From NCBI GenBank assembly GCA_002786065.1, contig NHNY01000028.1, positions 124,001 through 188,000 of the forward strand: a stretch of DNA of 64,000 nucleotides, given 5' to 3'. This DNA is from Microcyclospora pomicola. Lineage: Eukaryota; Ascomycota; Dothideomycetes; Capnodiales. Shown here one piece after another: positions 37,053 through 52,971 of the stretch. The position numbers and the translations under genes were made by a program. The notes under the pieces are model-generated. The model was not told the DNA's origin and made no database searches. It saw nothing but the letters and a program-made list of their open reading frames with translations. Within the stretch, counting starts at the first letter, position 1, and each line of letters begins with the position of its first letter.

Positions 37053-37081
37053 GTACAGTACAGTACAGTACAGTACAGTAC
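37053..37081. repeat. GTACA pentanucleotide microsatellite
   Basis: Five to six uninterrupted GTACA units between GC-richer flanks. Probably length-polymorphic between strains. Confidence 0.85.
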
Positions 37082-38113: not shown

Positions 38114-41100
38114 CTATAGCTCGTCGTGACCGCTGGGCTCGTCGTCGTAATCGGGCATACCACCAGCGCCGCCGGCGTTAAGCTTGCTGGTGATGGGGTA
38201 GGCGACGTCGCTCAGCTTCTGCTTCTGCTCCTCAAAGTCGTCGGCGTCGGCGGTCTGGCCATTCTCCTCGAGCCAGTCCACAGTCTCCTTGACAGCTTCC
38301 ATAAGGGTCTCCTTGTCATCCTCGTCGATCTTGCCGCCAAGACCCTCATCGTCGTTGAGCTGGTTCTTGATGGAGAAAGCGTAGTTCTCGAGTGCGTTGC
38401 GTCCCTCAATACGTTCGCGGGTAGCCTTGTCTTCGTCGGCGTACTTCTCCGCCTCGGCGACCATGCGCTCGATCTCCTCGGCGCTCAAGCGACCCTTGTC
38501 GTTGGTGATGGTGATAGACTCAGTCTTGCCACTGCCCTTGTCGCCAGCGGAAACACGAAGGATTCCGTTAGCGTCGAGTTCGAAAGTAACCTCAATTTGT
38601 GGTTGGCCACGAGGTGCCGGAGGAATCCCTGACAGTTCAAATTTGCCGAGAAGGTTGCTACAGAAGATATGTTAGCTTTTGAGCGTAATGGACATGAGTG
38701 CAACAAAGGGATGACAAAGGAAATCTACGAACAGCCGAAGCACATTTGCGGTGATGACGAGCGGAGGACCGATGACGGCGTAGAACATTGCGATCTTTGG
38801 CCTGGTAGTCGCACGGTTCGCAGTACAAACCACAGTCGTCAGCGAGGACAGCCTTGTGTCGATCTGTAGCTTCGTGTCGATGCAGTAGAGTACTGCTGCC
38901 GGCACTGTAGTCACAAGGAATACAATGCCATCTCTTGGCTGCTCGATGCTTCGCCATGGTTGCTGTGGCCACAGGTTGATATGCTCTGGCATATTTGCGG
39001 ACCATTGCATGATATTCTGGCTTGTTGTCGGCGCGGAGCTTACGGTCGTATGCCCTTCTGATTTCACGTCGATGCTCCAAGGCGGCGGCAGCCATAGCTT
39101 CGAGTTGTTCAGCGTCGAGGTCGATGCCATCAGCTCCGAAGACACCTTCCATAAGTGGGTTGTGAGAACAGAGGCCCTTCCATTCGAAGTCGTCTCGACC
39201 CCAAGGGGTCTCATCAGGAAAGTTGTATTTGGTGGTGGTTTTGAACATGGGCCAGAAGATGAGATGGAATGCAGCCTCGACGGCAACGAGTACGACACGT
39301 AAGGCTGGAACTTGCACTGGAGTAGGTATGTCGCACCAAGCAAGCAGAGCCTCGTGGATTTGCTTGTAGCCAGCATTTTTTGCATCTCTGACGTGAGAAG
39401 GTTCAACTCGTCGACCTTTGTGCATAAACACACGGTAACGAACGCCATTGTGGGCAGTACCAGTGCCAGAGCCAATATAGGTTTTGAAGTCTCGACCTTT
39501 ACGAAGTACAAGAATGTAGATGCCCCAGGACTGCCGTGGTATGTGAGTGGAGAGAGACAAGATCCAGTCAAGAGTTGGCGGAGTAGCAGATTGGATGACA
39601 TCGAACAAACCAGGGCAGAAGATAAGGCCAAGTTCAGGAAATAGAGCGTTGAGATCGTCGACAGTAGCAAGCACCTGGCGATAGATAGGGTTGATCCATT
39701 CCGAGACATCGAGACAGAGCCAGGTGAAATGGAGAATGAGCGACTGTATGTCGGGTGCGTCGTATCTCATGGTGTGCTCGCGTCAAGAATGGTGATAGCA
39801 GATCGATGGCCTTGCAAATGAGCGTCGATGGAGGTGATGGAGAGTCCAGCAAGCCTCGCAAGCAGGCGGCGAGACGAGTTTTGATCGTCTTGACAGCATG
39901 GCCGTGGCAATGGCAATGGTCCTCCATCGACGTGAAGTGGGTAGGTGTAGGTGATGTGAGGGAGGTGTAGTGCAGGGTGGAGGGAAGCAACCCGGTCGAT
40001 GGAAGTGACTTCCGCCACAGAAATAATACTTACTATAGAATTTGTTAGTATTCATTCTTGTAATGATGGACAAGTTAACCAACCTTATCTTTTGTCATTG
40101 AACGTTCTCCTTCGAATACCTGGATCAAAACCACAGGCTGGTTGTCGGCGGCCGTGGAGAAGATCTGGGACTTCTTGGTGGGGATAGTAGTACCGCGCTT
40201 GATCAAGTGGGTCATGACACCGCCAGTGGTCTCGATACCGAGGGTGAGCGGGTTGACATCCATGAGGACGAGTTGAGTGGCCTGTGTCAGACGTCAGCAC
40301 GACTCAAGATTCGCTTGTGGTAGGAATTGTGACTTACCTCCTTCTCGCCAGACAAAATACCACCTTGAACGGCAGCACCGTATGCAACAGCCTCGTCAGG
40401 GTTGATACCCTTGCTGGCCTTCTTGCCAAAGTACTCCTCGAGCATGGCCTGAACCTTCGGGATACGGGTGGAACCACCAACGAGAACGATGTCGTCAATG
40501 TCGGTCTTCTTGAGCTTGGCATCCTTGAGCACTTGCTCAACAGGCTTCAAGGTCTTCTTGAAGAGGTCGTTGTTCAACTCCTCGAACTTGGCGCGGGTAA
40601 GAGTCTCGGAGAAGTCGTTGCCCTCGTGGAAGGCTTCGATCTCAATCTTGGTGCTCATCTGCGAGGACAGCGTACGCTTGGCCTTCTCGACCTCGCGCTT
40701 CAGCTTACCCATCGTCTTGGAGTTCTTGGTGATGTCGGTGTCATGCTTCTTGTTGTAGCTCTTGACGAAAAAGTCCACGACACGCTGGTCGAAATCCTCA
40801 CCACCGAGATGGGTGTCACCGGCAGTAGCCTGGACCTCGAATACACCTTGGTCGACAGTCAGGATAGACACATCGAAAGTTCCTCCACCAAGATCGTAGA
40901 CGATGATCTGCTTCTCTTCATCGGTCTTGTCGAGGCCATAGGCGAGAGCGGCGGCGGTAGGTTCGTTGACGACACGGAGAACGTTCAAACCGGCGATGGT
41001 GCCAGCGTCTTTAGTCGCGGCACGCTGAGCGTCGTTGAAGTAGGCGGGGACGGTGACAACGGCGTTGGTGACCTTCTCACCGAGGTAGGACTCGGCGACT

Positions 41101-41765
41101 TCCTTCATGCGGCCCAAGATCATCGATGAGACCTCTTCTGGGGTGAAAGTCTTCTCGGAGCTGTACGCTTGTTAGCATTGATCTTCGCAGTATCGTCTGT
41201 CCAGCGGATGGACTCACCCAGAAACCTCAACCTTGACACGTGGCTGGCCACCCTTGTTGACGACCTTGAATGGGAAGTGCTTCATGTCCTTTTGCACATC
41301 ACGGTCGTCAAACTTGCGTCCGATCAATCGCTTGATGTCGAAGATGGTTCGTTCGGGGTTCGATGCAAACTGGTTTTTTGCGGCGTCTCCAACCAATCGC
41401 TCTTCATCGTTCCATGCGACCCAGGATGGTGTGATACGGTTACCCTGGTCGTTGACAAGGATCTCAACTTTGCCGCCCTTCATGATACCCACACAGGAGT
41501 AGGTGGTTCCAAGATCGATACCGATGACTGTGCGAGGTGGTGTTAGCTTCGAGCTCGACGATCAGACAGGCGAACAGATTGTAGTCTTACCAGGTCCAGT
41601 GATTGCGTTGTCCTTGGTGGGCTCAGTGTCTTGTGCCGTTGCCGAAGGAATCATGCCCATGAAGAGCATGGGAGCGAGCAGGATGGCACAGATGTAGAAA
41701 GCGGTCATCCATGGTGAGACGGTCGACCGCATCGACCGACTCTTGTCTCTTGAGAAACGACCCAT
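38114..41765 (-). CDS. KAR2: ER Hsp70 chaperone BiP/Kar2, with a stwintron in the fourth intron position
   Basis: Exons 41765-41591, 41527-41218, 41160-40338, 40281-40085 and 38657-38114 total 2049 nt, 682 aa. A signal-anchor-like leader (hydrophobic about 20-43, cleavage near ATAQD) precedes the ATPase domain (IDLGTTYS at 62-69; [23 protein letters not shown]). The substrate-binding domain ([27 protein letters not shown]) and lid follow, ending in the ER-retrieval signal HDEL. Introns 1-3 are 63, 57 and 56 nt. The fourth interruption (40084-38658) is about 1.43 kb and contains a 51-nt inner intron plus a GIY-YIG gene. It splits codon 502 (AA|C) and, removed in two steps, restores [13 protein letters not shown]. 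Kar2 folds secretory proteins, drives translocation and gauges the unfolded protein response. Confidence 0.96.
38658..39770 (-). CDS. GIY-YIG nuclease with two C2H2 zinc fingers, nested in a KAR2 intron
   Basis: An open frame of 370 aa from ATG at 39770. GIY lies at 83-85 and YIG at 98-100 ([20 protein letters not shown]), with Arg111/113 in the following helix ([10 protein letters not shown]) and a candidate metal-binding Glu165 ([10 protein letters not shown]), the spacing expected for a GIY-YIG catalytic domain. Two fingers follow: C283-C286-H299-H305 and C317-C320-H333-H339, each C-x2-C-x12-H-x5-H, likely for DNA binding. A conserved-looking block, [20 protein letters not shown], precedes the nuclease domain. 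The last codons AAG CTA ACA TAT CTT CTG TAG overlap the branch point and 3' splice site of the host intron. It is probably expressed from unspliced or alternative transcripts. No promoter was recognised. Confidence 0.85.
39771..39927 (-). pseudogene. Out-of-frame N-terminal segment of the GIY-YIG gene
   Basis: A second frame opens at ATG 39927 with [16 protein letters not shown], continues through [17 protein letters not shown] and AIDLLSPFL, and reaches the region of the main ATG in a different frame. In composition and spacing it reads like the natural N-terminus of this GIY-YIG family, so the main frame probably starts after an ancestral one-base frame change. No GT...AG pair fits as an intron in the short overlap. 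It may mark early decay of the nuclease, or the shorter protein may suffice. Confidence 0.5.
40033..40083 (-). other. Inner intron of a [D1,2] stwintron in KAR2
   Basis: 51 nt from GTTGGT to TATAG with a consensus ATACTAAC branch point 11 nt before the acceptor. It sits between G (40084) and TAAGT (40032-40028), so its removal joins them into a perfect donor GTAAGTATT for the outer intron. A single-step reading fails. Using GTTGGT as the only donor leaves phase 0, which the outer acceptor cannot match, and stopping at the inner acceptor runs at once into TAA. The two-step order is therefore required to make BiP. Confidence 0.85.
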
Positions 41766-49508: not shown

Positions 49509-51854
49509 TTACTTCCGGCTGGGCAGCCTCCTCCCGGCCGTGGTGATGTCCTCAAACAGCTTCTTAGCTGTAAGCAGGATCTCACACACCCGGGCCGGGT
49601 CTGCGTCGGTCTTGCTCACCACCTCAGACTCGCGCCCGTCCTCGAACAGCTTGATCAGGGCATGCCATTTCGGTCCTGACATCGAGCATTCCAACACCTT
49701 CCAGCCATTCATATCGACAGCCTTCCAGCCAAGTTCACGAGCATGATTCTTGCGCAGCCAGTCGATGATGCTCTGGATACGATGCTCGCAGCGCGTGATG
49801 AAGCGTCTGCGTCTGCCAGGACCATAAGCACCGTCGATGAGATCCCACTCCGTACACATCTGGCCCCAGGTGACCTTGTTTTTGCGAGCGCGAGTGGTGA
49901 GTGCTGGCGTGGCGTCCTCGAGCTGTCCGTCGATGTACTCCCGATCGGCATTCAGCTCGTCCATCCATGTCTTGACGCACGTCTTGGCAGCGGCGATGGT
50001 CATGTCCTCAAGCTTGATCTGATTTCCAGGTACGTCCATTGAAGCGTTGTTCGCCATGTTGGAGTTGGCTGGTCGGTTCATCGAGAATGAGATGGGAGCA
50101 TTCCTTTTAAGCTGGTTTGTGGGCGCTGGCTGGAATGGAGATGGATTATCCCTTGCAGGGAGAGACGTCTGGGGTGTGCTAGGTCCATTCTGAGGAGGCC
50201 CAGCCATCTGGAATGGAATTGGTCCATTCTGCAGACGATCCAACGGTAAGGTCCTTGGAAGGGTGCGCGGTGTCGTGCTTGGCGGAAGAGGCGTCTGGAA
50301 TGGGCTCGGTCCATTCTGCGGAGGGCCAGCCATCTGGAATGCTATCGGTCCTTTCTGAGGGGGGGCAGCCATCTGGAATGGAATGGGTCCGTTCTGCAGA
50401 CGATCCAATGGCAAGGTCCTTGCAAGGGTGCGAGGTACTGGCTGCTGAGAGCTTGGAGGTGCTGCTGTTGCAGCTCTTACATCCACCTCGTCCGATGGTG
50501 ACCATCCTCTTGCCGATTCGCTGATACTGAAGCGGGTACTGCTTCTGGTAAGCTCATCGACGCCCACCTCGCTGCCACCACTTCTGATGGTCCTCTCCAT
50601 TTCCATCTCGTCGCCACCACTTATGGGCTGGTCGACTGTCATCTCGTCGCCGCCACTTATAGGCTGGTCGACTGTCATCTCGTCGCCACCACTTATGGGC
50701 TGGTCGACTTTCATCTCGTCGCCGCCGCTTATGGGCTGGTCGACTGCCATCTCGTTGCCACTGCTTATGGTGGACTGCATCGGCACCGATGGCATGGGTG
50801 CCATCTCTGCAGAATCGTGATTGCCACTGCTTATGGTGGTCTTCCGTACAGGTGATGGTGGTACTTCCACTGAGATTGGGACGTGCGGCCGGTCGTTCTG
50901 CAACATTGCCAGCACCGAGAATGGTTCTACTGCTTGTGGTAGTGGCATCCTGAATGGTGACAGGGAAATCGGCTGCCCCACTGATGGTGGTGGTGATACA
51001 GCGGCGGGGATATGGACGGGCGGCGATGGTACCATGAAAGATGCCGCCTCAGTGATGGAAGGCTGGGAAACAGGTCGCTCTTTCTGTCCCAGGTACTTCA
51101 TCCAGGATTTGTCTCCTGGACCATGAAAATTCAACGGGTGGACGTCCCAAAGAGTGGCGGAGGGCAGGTGAAGAAGGTATTGGCCTATCATTAGGGCCGA
51201 GGAGCAGAGCCAGACATCCAGGATGTATTCAGGGCCATATGTGACTTTTCTTATGAAGTCGAATTGGCCAAGGCTTCTCAACATGTCTTGTGGCAGACGG
51301 TCGAACATCCCACCGTCCGTCTCTGGTGGCAGCATGCGCCACTCTGTTACAGTGACGCATGTTGCTGTTGGTGCTGGTAGGGAGGGCGCATTGTGACGGT
51401 CAGGCGCCATAGCAGGCTCGTCACTACGCTGCTCATCTGAGAAGCGTACACGCTTCCCCTTTGTCTTTTTGTCCCGTGCGACTTGTTGGCGCAGTCCTGC
51501 TGCTTGCCTCTCTTCCGCCGCGTACTGCTCGACACAAGCCCTGAATCTTTCCTTGACAGCAGTGACCTCTGCCTCTTTGGTGAGGTACTTGTTTCCTGGA
51601 TCCACATAACCTGTCCTGTAGCCCCGCTCCCAGGAAAGTGTTGGGAGCGGGTCTCTCAGGCACAGGTTTGTGCCGATGAGTCCGTACGGGCTACCTGACT
51701 CTTTATAAAGCATTGGTGCCGCTGGAGTGTCGGCATGTGGGTGGATGAGGTGCACCACGGGGCGAGTCCAAAGCATGGTGTTGATCTTCATCAAGGCGAA
51801 GGACACGACAATGACAAAAAGAAGCCACATGGTGGCGGAGATCTCCTCGAACAT
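49509..51854 (-). CDS. Unrecognised membrane-anchored protein with two repeat regions
   Basis: Single exon, 781 aa. An N-terminal hydrophobic helix (MWLLFVIVVSFALM, about 9-22) is followed by a block with PGNKYLTKEAEVTAVKERF and a basic KKTKGKRVRF cluster. A globular-looking part comes next (FDRLPQDMLRSLGQFDFIRK; GPEYILDVWLCSSALM). Residues about 355-420 hold a 12-residue tandem repeat, DQPISGGDEMTV, four near-perfect units with degenerate edges. Residues about 470-570 are Pro/Gln-rich with two copies of LPLDRLQNGPIPFQMA. The C-terminal 190 residues look folded (TIAAAKTCVKTWMDELNADR; RRFITRCEHRIQSIIDWL). No family is recognised, and it could be lineage-specific. The long intact frame and good codon use support coding. 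Confidence 0.75.
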   Translation of the reverse strand: MFEEISATMWLLFVIVVSFALMKINTMLWTRPVVHLIHPHADTPAAPMLYKESGSPYGLIGTNLCLRDPLPTLSWERGYRTGYVDPGNKYLTKEAEVTAVKERFRACVEQYAAEERQAAGLRQQVARDKKTKGKRVRFSDEQRSDEPAMAPDRHNAPSLPAPTATCVTVTEWRMLPPETDGGMFDRLPQDMLRSLGQFDFIRKVTYGPEYILDVWLCSSALMIGQYLLHLPSATLWDVHPLNFHGPGDKSWMKYLGQKERPVSQPSITEAASFMVPSPPVHIPAAVSPPPSVGQPISLSPFRMPLPQAVEPFSVLAMLQNDRPHVPISVEVPPSPVRKTTISSGNHDSAEMAPMPSVPMQSTISSGNEMAVDQPISGGDEMKVDQPISGGDEMTVDQPISGGDEMTVDQPISGGDEMEMERTIRSGGSEVGVDELTRSSTRFSISESARGWSPSDEVDVRAATAAPPSSQQPVPRTLARTLPLDRLQNGPIPFQMAAPPQKGPIAFQMAGPPQNGPSPFQTPLPPSTTPRTLPRTLPLDRLQNGPIPFQMAGPPQNGPSTPQTSLPARDNPSPFQPAPTNQLKRNAPISFSMNRPANSNMANNASMDVPGNQIKLEDMTIAAAKTCVKTWMDELNADREYIDGQLEDATPALTTRARKNKVTWGQMCTEWDLIDGAYGPGRRRRFITRCEHRIQSIIDWLRKNHARELGWKAVDMNGWKVLECSMSGPKWHALIKLFEDGRESEVVSKTDADPARVCEILLTAKKLFEDITTAGRRLPSRK
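50188..50437 (-). repeat. Pro/Gln-rich direct repeats inside the 781-aa gene
   Basis: Two copies of an about 80-bp unit (50188-50275 and 50356-50437) encode RTL(A/P)RTLPLDRLQNGPIPFQMA, and shorter PPQNGP and PPQKGP modules lie between them. The spacing of about 170 bp is a multiple of three, so frame is kept. Confidence 0.8.
50596..50775 (-). repeat. 36-bp in-frame tandem repeat inside the 781-aa gene
   Basis: About five units of 36 bp, each encoding the 12-residue unit (I)SGGDEM(T/K/E)VDQP on the minus strand. Units differ by a few bases, mostly silent (GCCACCACTTATGGG versus GCCGCCACTTATAGG on the plus strand). Period 36 keeps frame, so copy number can vary without breaking the protein. 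Confidence 0.9.
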
Positions 51855-52971
51855 CTTGGTGATGTTCTAGTGGGTTGCTGATACTGTAGTCAAGGCATGT
51901 GTCAGTCTTGGAAAGAACTTCGAAGCAACGGGGGCCAGGGGAGGTATGGAGCCCCCAAATGCCTCGACTTACGTGGTGCGGTCGGTAATGTTCGATGTCG
52001 AGGTTTGGTGATGGTAGTGTAGTAAAACAAGCTTGTGAACAGCTCGAGCGGGAAGGTGTACTGTGCTTGGGGTATTGACGAGGATGCTCGAATGCTGGAG
52101 GAATGTCTCAAAGAGCGTGAAGTAGTTACTGGTGATGGGAGAGAGAACGTAAGGAACTGTGGAAGTGGGACGGTGAAGAGGTTTATAACACCACCTGACA
52201 GGTGCGGAAACGAGAATTCGTCCCTCATTCACATGCGTATTGTTCACATAGCCTTGAGGTGAGCGTGAAGTTTGACGCGTTAATCATCACATGCAAGAGA
52301 ACTTCACACAACTGCCCAAGAGAGGTTGCACCTTGGTCCATTGTCGTCGAGCAAGATCGCAACTCGGTCCCACTACTGTTCATGGTCAGTTATGTCTTGA
52401 CTCATTCTTCTTACTATGTCTTGATATCGAGCCCTTCTGCAAGAGCAAAAGGAGTGGTAAGTGAAGTTTCTCAGATCGTGCACGGACCATGCCTATCACA
52501 TGCAATTGGATTCGGATATATGAGCAAATGATCTTGCCTGAGGCGTACCAGCGACGTCCAGAACGAGGAGTGATCTTATTCACAAGTGTGTGTTGTTTTT
52601 CAAGAGTTCATTGGAAGACAAGATTGCATTTTTCGTCATGTGCTCTGCCAATCTTCGGCGTGAGCAAACAAATTAGCAAAAGCCGCGAGGATGTTTGCCC
52701 AATGGTGTCTTACCTCCTACTGGCAAAGCTATATGCCTTGGCAACAGAACAGACCCGTGCACACGGTCGACTGTGATGCCCCAAAGCTATTGCAGGATCT
52801 TCGGGCTCTATCCTCTGCTCGCAACATATAGGTATTCCTTGGCCTGTGTCAATCCACCACCACGTCGTGAAATCAAGAACGACCATACTCAAAAATTGGT
52901 TCTTGATACATTCCTGGCAGTATCCTACACTACTCCAACCAGCAACCCTGCAAGATCCCGCTCGCAGTCGC
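51855..52971. other. 1.1-kb intergenic region
   Basis: Promoter of the 781-aa gene and the 3' end of the DUF3405 gene. A TTTATAACACC element near 52180 lies about 330 bp upstream of the start. No gene seen. Confidence 0.45.

Follow-up and report, generated by a model that had tools for sequence, protein, structure and literature searches.

The window analyzed here is a 64,000-nucleotide stretch of the genome of the dothideomycete Microcyclospora pomicola; it contains the gene for the chaperone BiP/KAR2, in whose last intron a gene for a GIY-YIG zinc-finger nuclease is nested. The window lies within a 337-kb contig (C21) of a 58-contig, 23.4-Mb genome. KAR2 is an essential gene. It is encoded on the minus strand in five exons (41765–41591, 41527–41218, 41160–40338, 40281–40085, and 38657–38117), whose spliced translation is a 682-amino-acid protein with HDEL at its C terminus. 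The last intron falls after nucleotide 1505, in phase 2 of codon 502, and 1,427 bases are inserted there. The exon coordinates and the spliced translation agree with a preliminary description of this DNA, which had placed a nuclease gene in a nuclear spliceosomal intron of BiP at this codon. The features of the locus are as follows.

38117–41765, minus strand: BiP/KAR2 host gene, five exons (spliced translation; Pfam HSP70 on two exon frames).
40085–40096, minus strand: 5′ exon flank of the insertion site, ending ...AAAGATAA (GATAA), codon 502, phase 2.
40084–40084, minus strand: first nucleotide (G) of the outer donor (sequence).
40033–40083, minus strand: inner intron of the [D1,2] stwintron, 51 nt, GTTGGT...TACTAAC...TATAG (sequence).
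38658–40032, minus strand: remainder of the outer intron, 1,375 nt, TAAGTATT...GCTAAC...TGTAG (sequence; no Rfam match).
39771–40032, minus strand: intronic leader, 262 nt, with a pyrimidine-rich stretch; candidate nuclease promoter.
38658–39770, minus strand: nuclease open reading frame (ORF), 370 amino acids, ATG at 39770 (sequence; relatives by protein search).
39135–39587, minus strand: GIY-YIG core domain, residues 62–212 (GIY 83–85, YIG 98–100, R113, E165, HN 203–204).
38856–38924, minus strand: C2H2 finger 1, residues 283–305 (27-sequence alignment).
38754–38822, minus strand: C2H2 finger 2, residues 317–339 (Pfam PF12171).
38646–38657, minus strand: 3′ exon flank of the insertion site, CAACCTTCTCGG.

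Judged by sequence, the splice sites at the insertion are spliceosomal GT-AG and the intron resolves as a [D1,2] stwintron, as the preliminary description had it. The internal intron is placed between nucleotides 1 and 2 of the external donor, which is the defining arrangement, and TACTAAC serves as the branch sequence of the 51-nt inner intron. Single-intron readings, tried by eye, either shifted the frame or lost NLLGKFELS. A group I or group II intron was rejected, as Rfam gave no match at E values up to 1. In the genome, the 5′ part of 314 nt and the pattern of the inner intron were each found once, and this single copy rules out an introner or a repeated stwintron. Among repeats of at least 14 nt, which are imperfect and comprise nine families of direct repeats and two inverted pairs, none pairs the two intron ends; an arm of one inverted pair (25 nt, 72%) lies across the 5′ junction. 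The preliminary description had also credited the stwintron with making the insertion harmless. We found no support for this, or for a role of the stwintron in mobility; a plain intron would suffice.

The nuclease retains the GIY and YIG motifs, the helix arginine, the glutamate, and two C2H2 fingers, as originally described. In a 47-sequence alignment, Y98, G100, R113, and E165 are invariant columns and Y85 is nearly so. Both fingers have the form C-X2-C-X12-H-X5-H; in finger 1, C283, C286, and H305 are invariant and H299 is near-invariant across 27 sequences. Because Pfam recognizes the fingers and nothing else in the protein, the GIY-YIG assignment rests on the motifs and the predicted structure. 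The latter contains a GIY-YIG fold, and the closest solved structure to this model is a GIY-YIG homing endonuclease of the I-TevI type. The Pfam GIY-YIG family PF01541 was matched neither in the window protein, nor among the 25 families listed for 27 members, nor in 10 further scans, and a genome search gave no PF01541 match at the nuclease locus. Foldseek with the full-length model returned nothing at E ≤ 0.001, and neither NCBIfam nor PHROGs matched the window protein. PHROGs run over 25 family members gave scattered single or double matches, one of them a named endonuclease (E 0.046). The nuclease family is thus a divergent GIY-YIG family. The sole PF01541 match found in the genome lies elsewhere (contig C24, 75811–76023); it is probably Slx1, although this name is a guess. 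An intein was ruled out, since the ORF has stops on both sides and the Pfam scan is free of intein domains, as was a retroelement, since neither a reverse transcriptase nor any other domain typical of retroelements turned up when the ORF was scanned with Pfam.

The length of the nuclease frame is not expected by chance. It is open for 374 codons, whereas shuffling the mononucleotides of the 1,375-nt intron 2,000 times never gave more than 273. Simulated neutral change at 0.2 per site introduced a mean of 6.4 stops, and 1 of 2,000 copies was still open, which suggests that selection has kept the frame open, 0.2 per site being a simulated divergence that may differ from the real one. GC content at the three codon positions (0.60, 0.45, and 0.49) is unlike that of BiP (0.58, 0.38, and 0.70), indicating that the nuclease is not tuned like its host gene. 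The nuclease stop codon, TAG, is the outer 3′ splice acceptor TAG itself. Around the intronic leader, plus-strand GC skew is 0.24–0.32 in two 500-base windows. A second open frame of 364 codons (38672–39766, minus strand) overlaps the nuclease ORF almost entirely in another frame; it gave no sign of being a gene.

Three protein searches yielded 56 relatives. The first gave 26 (best match E 1.2e-137; nearest relatives about 60% identical). The second used the window nuclease plus the BiP tail as query, to shift the length range, with the nuclease part alone scored, and 3 of its 6 matches were new. The third used the nuclease parts of PEPCK- and SSB-model matches, scoring the 8,000 candidates that shared most words, and 27 of 29 were new. 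In nine of the 56, the gene model fuses the nuclease to a host protein, and all nine hosts are HSP70 proteins or phosphoenolpyruvate carboxykinase (PEPCK): BiP in P0015, SSA type in P0027 and P0043, SSB type in P0029, P0034, P0037, and P0042, and PEPCK in P0028 and P0033. Paralog names were assigned from C-terminal motifs (HDEL, EEVD) and similarity, and the junctions were read by eye. Scans of viral contigs, genome contigs, and phage records, which reach fairly close kin only, contained no relatives; a viral or prokaryotic origin accordingly found no backing within that reach. One relative, P0047 (528 amino acids), exceeds the window protein by several C2H2 fingers, which suggests that finger number, and perhaps target, varies within the family. 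The P. nodorum name is attached to two very different members, P0012 and P0056 (the latter on a distant branch), and the PMI808 name to P0006 and to P0037, the latter in SSB; P0012 and P0006 both belong to the clade of the site described next.

Together with the window, the fused models define three recurrent conserved junctions. Site A lies between KDN and NLxGKFEL and is occupied in the window (BiP) and in Hortaea werneckii (SSA), at the same codon in two paralogs. The H. werneckii model contains just 177 nuclease residues and takes up the host sequence again at NLMGKFEL, as expected of a plain junction, though a stwintron would be compatible with this too. Window BiP and Hortaea SSA are 63% identical before the site and 58% identical after it; in the 31-base flanks, 22 of 31 bases agree on each side between BiP and SSA, compared with 14 and 20 of 31 between BiP and mitochondrial HSP70. 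Site B lies between KK and D, ahead of [ST]xxxRALRRLRTACERAKRTLS, and is occupied in P0043 and in the SSB models of P. teres, L. nucula, Phaeosphaeriaceae PMI808, and F. culmorum. Site C is in PEPCK, between TEYA and GEMKKG. It is seen with both flanks in F. fujikuroi, a sordariomycete, and with the 5′ flank alone in the dothideomycete Rachicladosporium, whose model terminates with the nuclease. The preliminary description had suggested looking for the same family in other introns, and gene models bear this out as far as they can be read: the nine fused relatives (of 56) all have HSP70 or PEPCK hosts and use three junctions, one of which is the window's own codon in a paralog.

We spliced SSA, SSB, and mitochondrial HSP70 from the M. 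pomicola genome and mapped their introns on an alignment with BiP. The comparison covered four HSP70 paralogs, minus the last SSB intron and the N terminus of mitochondrial HSP70, and gave 13 introns at 11 positions. Two positions are common to paralogs: BiP and SSA share A, and SSA and SSB share B. The pair coincides with the two HSP70 nuclease sites of the family; the chance of picking this pair among 11 positions is 1/55. SSA (contig C56, 554900–557900) has only two introns, both plain, of 65 nt at A and 54 nt at B, and SSB (contig C30, 20500–23500) has a plain 80-nt intron at B. Mitochondrial HSP70 has no intron at site A. In PEPCK, a plain intron lies 15–18 nt from site C, at a different position. 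Compared with its H. werneckii counterpart, the SSA protein shows 93% identity in its first 460 residues and 84% identity beyond the site. The coincidence of shared positions with nuclease sites is suggestive rather than conclusive: it fits fossil homing introns and also old positions that were later invaded. Parallel intron gains at or near existing positions are described for Dothideomycetes in an earlier study (PMC4457414).

A tree of 57 rows was built, with P0015 and P0019 trimmed beforehand. All three site-A-labelled rows fall within one 22-row clade, both site-C rows in one 5-row clade, and three of five site-B rows in another 5-row clade (each 100/100), with the other two B rows elsewhere. 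Across the ten rows of known site, the site label requires two changes. Three states cannot be had with fewer, and 6 of 2,520 arrangements match this number; the host-paralog label requires four changes where the minimum is three. One constrained tree scored 8 log-likelihood units above the free search, so the free-search tree is not the optimum in detail.

Taken together, the gene structure, the intact ORF, the predicted GIY-YIG fold, the family, and the recurrence at HSP70 and PEPCK model junctions make it probable that the BiP intron, which lies in a nuclear chromosome of a fungus, is a spliceosomal homing intron ("shintron"). From these we infer that the nuclease is expressed, cleaves DNA, is specific for its target, and homes. 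The spliceosome would remove the intron in two steps and leave BiP unharmed; the insertion would be silent because it is spliced out. Translation continuing from BiP into the intron would terminate within a few codons, so the nuclease would need a transcript of its own, probably from a promoter inside the intron. As its stop codon lies at the splice acceptor, the nuclease mRNA would run into the last BiP exon and share the BiP terminator. The protein would then enter the nucleus and bind the conserved HSP70 sequence across codon 502 through its zinc fingers and neighboring parts, the GIY-YIG domain would cut alleles that lack the intron, and repair from the intron-bearing copy would write the intron into the cut allele. 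The proposed target is the exon junction, which the intron interrupts, and this would provide the usual self-protection.

Several points weigh against a homing intron. Outside the window, intron status comes from the fused models, and 47 of the 57 rows (47 of the 56 relatives) carry no host sequence. Both flanks are present in six of the nine fused models; P0033 has the 5′ flank only, and P0043 and P0015 the 3′ flank only. In P0015, the nuclease joins the BiP tail about a dozen codons downstream of site A, a junction that fits site A and does not prove it. Since the third search was seeded from PEPCK and SSB models, finding more such hosts was partly expected. The plain 65-nt SSA intron at site A means that the position could predate the nuclease. 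Three site-B rows are from Pleosporales, so the clustering by site is partly taxonomic and the ten points are not independent. A fungal-class label (two Sordariomycetes among seven named fused rows) requires two changes, as do 19 of 21 arrangements, and when the 47 unlabelled rows are treated as a group of their own, nine changes are needed and 34 of 200 shuffles are as low, giving no clear clustering. The discordance between nuclease and host trees raised in the preliminary description was not borne out in Pleosporales, where a host-like grouping was not rejected by the approximately unbiased (AU) test (p 0.652 and 0.456).

These points bear on what else the locus could be. The positions may be old and ordinary, with the nuclease gene alone moving into existing introns as safe harbors and the intron itself not homing. 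The short introns of SSA at A and B and of SSB at B, which are junctions with introns and without nuclease, speak for this, as does the plain PEPCK intron near site C. Set against them, the thing that recurs is the exon junction, in paralogs with the identity given above, and the plain introns there are short and, by eye, not obviously alike, so that an intronic target would be hard to see. We regard such movement of the gene alone as somewhat unlikely. The nuclease might instead be a domesticated or passive nested gene that passes vertically with its intron and is not mobile at present. Such a gene would fit the intact ORFs and the unsupported host-tree discordance. It is harder to square with family members in different paralogs and at different junctions, with one nuclease clade whose Fusarium and Rachicladosporium members share one PEPCK residue as their site, and with the finding of one member only in the single genome searched, that of the window; we consider it improbable. 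Lastly, the assembly could be wrong at this point, or a decayed gene could look open by chance; in favor of this, the locus was seen in one assembly only. Against it, the contig is 337 kb long, Pfam recognizes 7 of the 10 long open frames that were scanned across the window, the catalytic residues are intact, and homologs occur in independent genomes. An artifact is very improbable.

A wider extension of the homing-intron reading is that fungi continually gain spliceosomal introns by way of nuclear homing introns, which would enter housekeeping genes at conserved junctions, jump between paralogs that share the target, lose the nuclease, and persist as small plain introns. We advance this tentatively. 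Equally tentative is the part of it in which the plain SSA and SSB introns at A and B would be fossils of homing introns.

Elsewhere in the window, a perfect GTACA tandem repeat (5.8 copies, 37053–37081) lies downstream of BiP, and a 36-bp tandem repeat (4.6 copies, 90% match, 50604–50770) lies inside a 785-codon open frame (49509–51866) that Pfam does not match.

Known systems close to this one include those of mirusviruses. A November 2025 study counts 334 endonuclease genes in mirusvirus introns, 132 of them GIY-YIG, coins the term "shintron," and states that an association between endonucleases and spliceosomal introns was previously unobserved (PMC12768974). As described there, shintrons resemble the window intron in their GT-AG spliceosomal boundaries, the lack of a group I or II signature, homing proposed from genomics, and a nuclease gene nested in the intron, which in some shintrons is of the GIY-YIG type (PMC12768974). 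They have specific target genes, as the window family may have too. They differ in residing in viral genomes, mostly in virion genes, whereas the window intron interrupts BiP in a fungal chromosome, is part of a stwintron, and encodes a nuclease that bears C2H2 fingers; the word "fungi" is absent from the study (PMC12768974). Of the nuclear intron-homing system in the preliminary description, the homing-type nuclease gene in a spliceosomal intron stands, and the idea is not wholly new, given the homing nucleases described in spliceosomal introns of mirusviruses (PMC12768974). GIY-YIG homing endonucleases of group I introns (I-TevI type) share the predicted catalytic fold and motif residues; those systems are organellar or phage-borne, whereas the window intron is nuclear and matches no self-splicing intron in Rfam. 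WHO elements and HO of yeasts are likewise homing elements of the nucleus, whose zinc-finger nuclease targets a conserved housekeeping gene, but WHO elements are LAGLIDADG/intein-derived and sit beside FBA1, replacing its 3′ end, rather than in an intron (PMC7282813). The [D1,2] stwintrons of Hypoxylaceae and Xylariaceae have the same nested donor arrangement and are sequence-similar copies, unlike the single copy here; "endonuclease" does not occur in that study (PMC12403724). Fungal introner-like elements share spliceosomal intron gain in Dothideomycetes and parallel gains near existing positions, but are multi-copy where the window intron is single copy, and "endonuclease" is again absent from the text (PMC4457414). 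In open-licence PMC text, "shintron" otherwise appears only in one paper, on titanium implants. Among the matches listed from that text, which excludes preprints, and judging by title and the start of the abstract, we found no report of a homing nuclease in a cellular spliceosomal intron. The kind of element is known from viruses; what is new is its presence in a cellular chromosome and a nuclease family unnamed in the libraries searched.

Cellular spliceosomal introns are not known to move by homing, and the origin of new spliceosomal introns is an open question. With a nuclease family that recurs at particular chaperone and PEPCK junctions in two fungal classes, the spread of a spliceosomal intron by a homing nuclease can be put to a direct test in fungi that grow in culture, and conserved sites could gain introns by a route that operates on DNA. 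The mirusvirus shintron idea would be extended to cellular chromosomes, and if the wider reading is true, fungi would have a nuclear version of the cycle of homing-endonuclease gain, decay, and loss.
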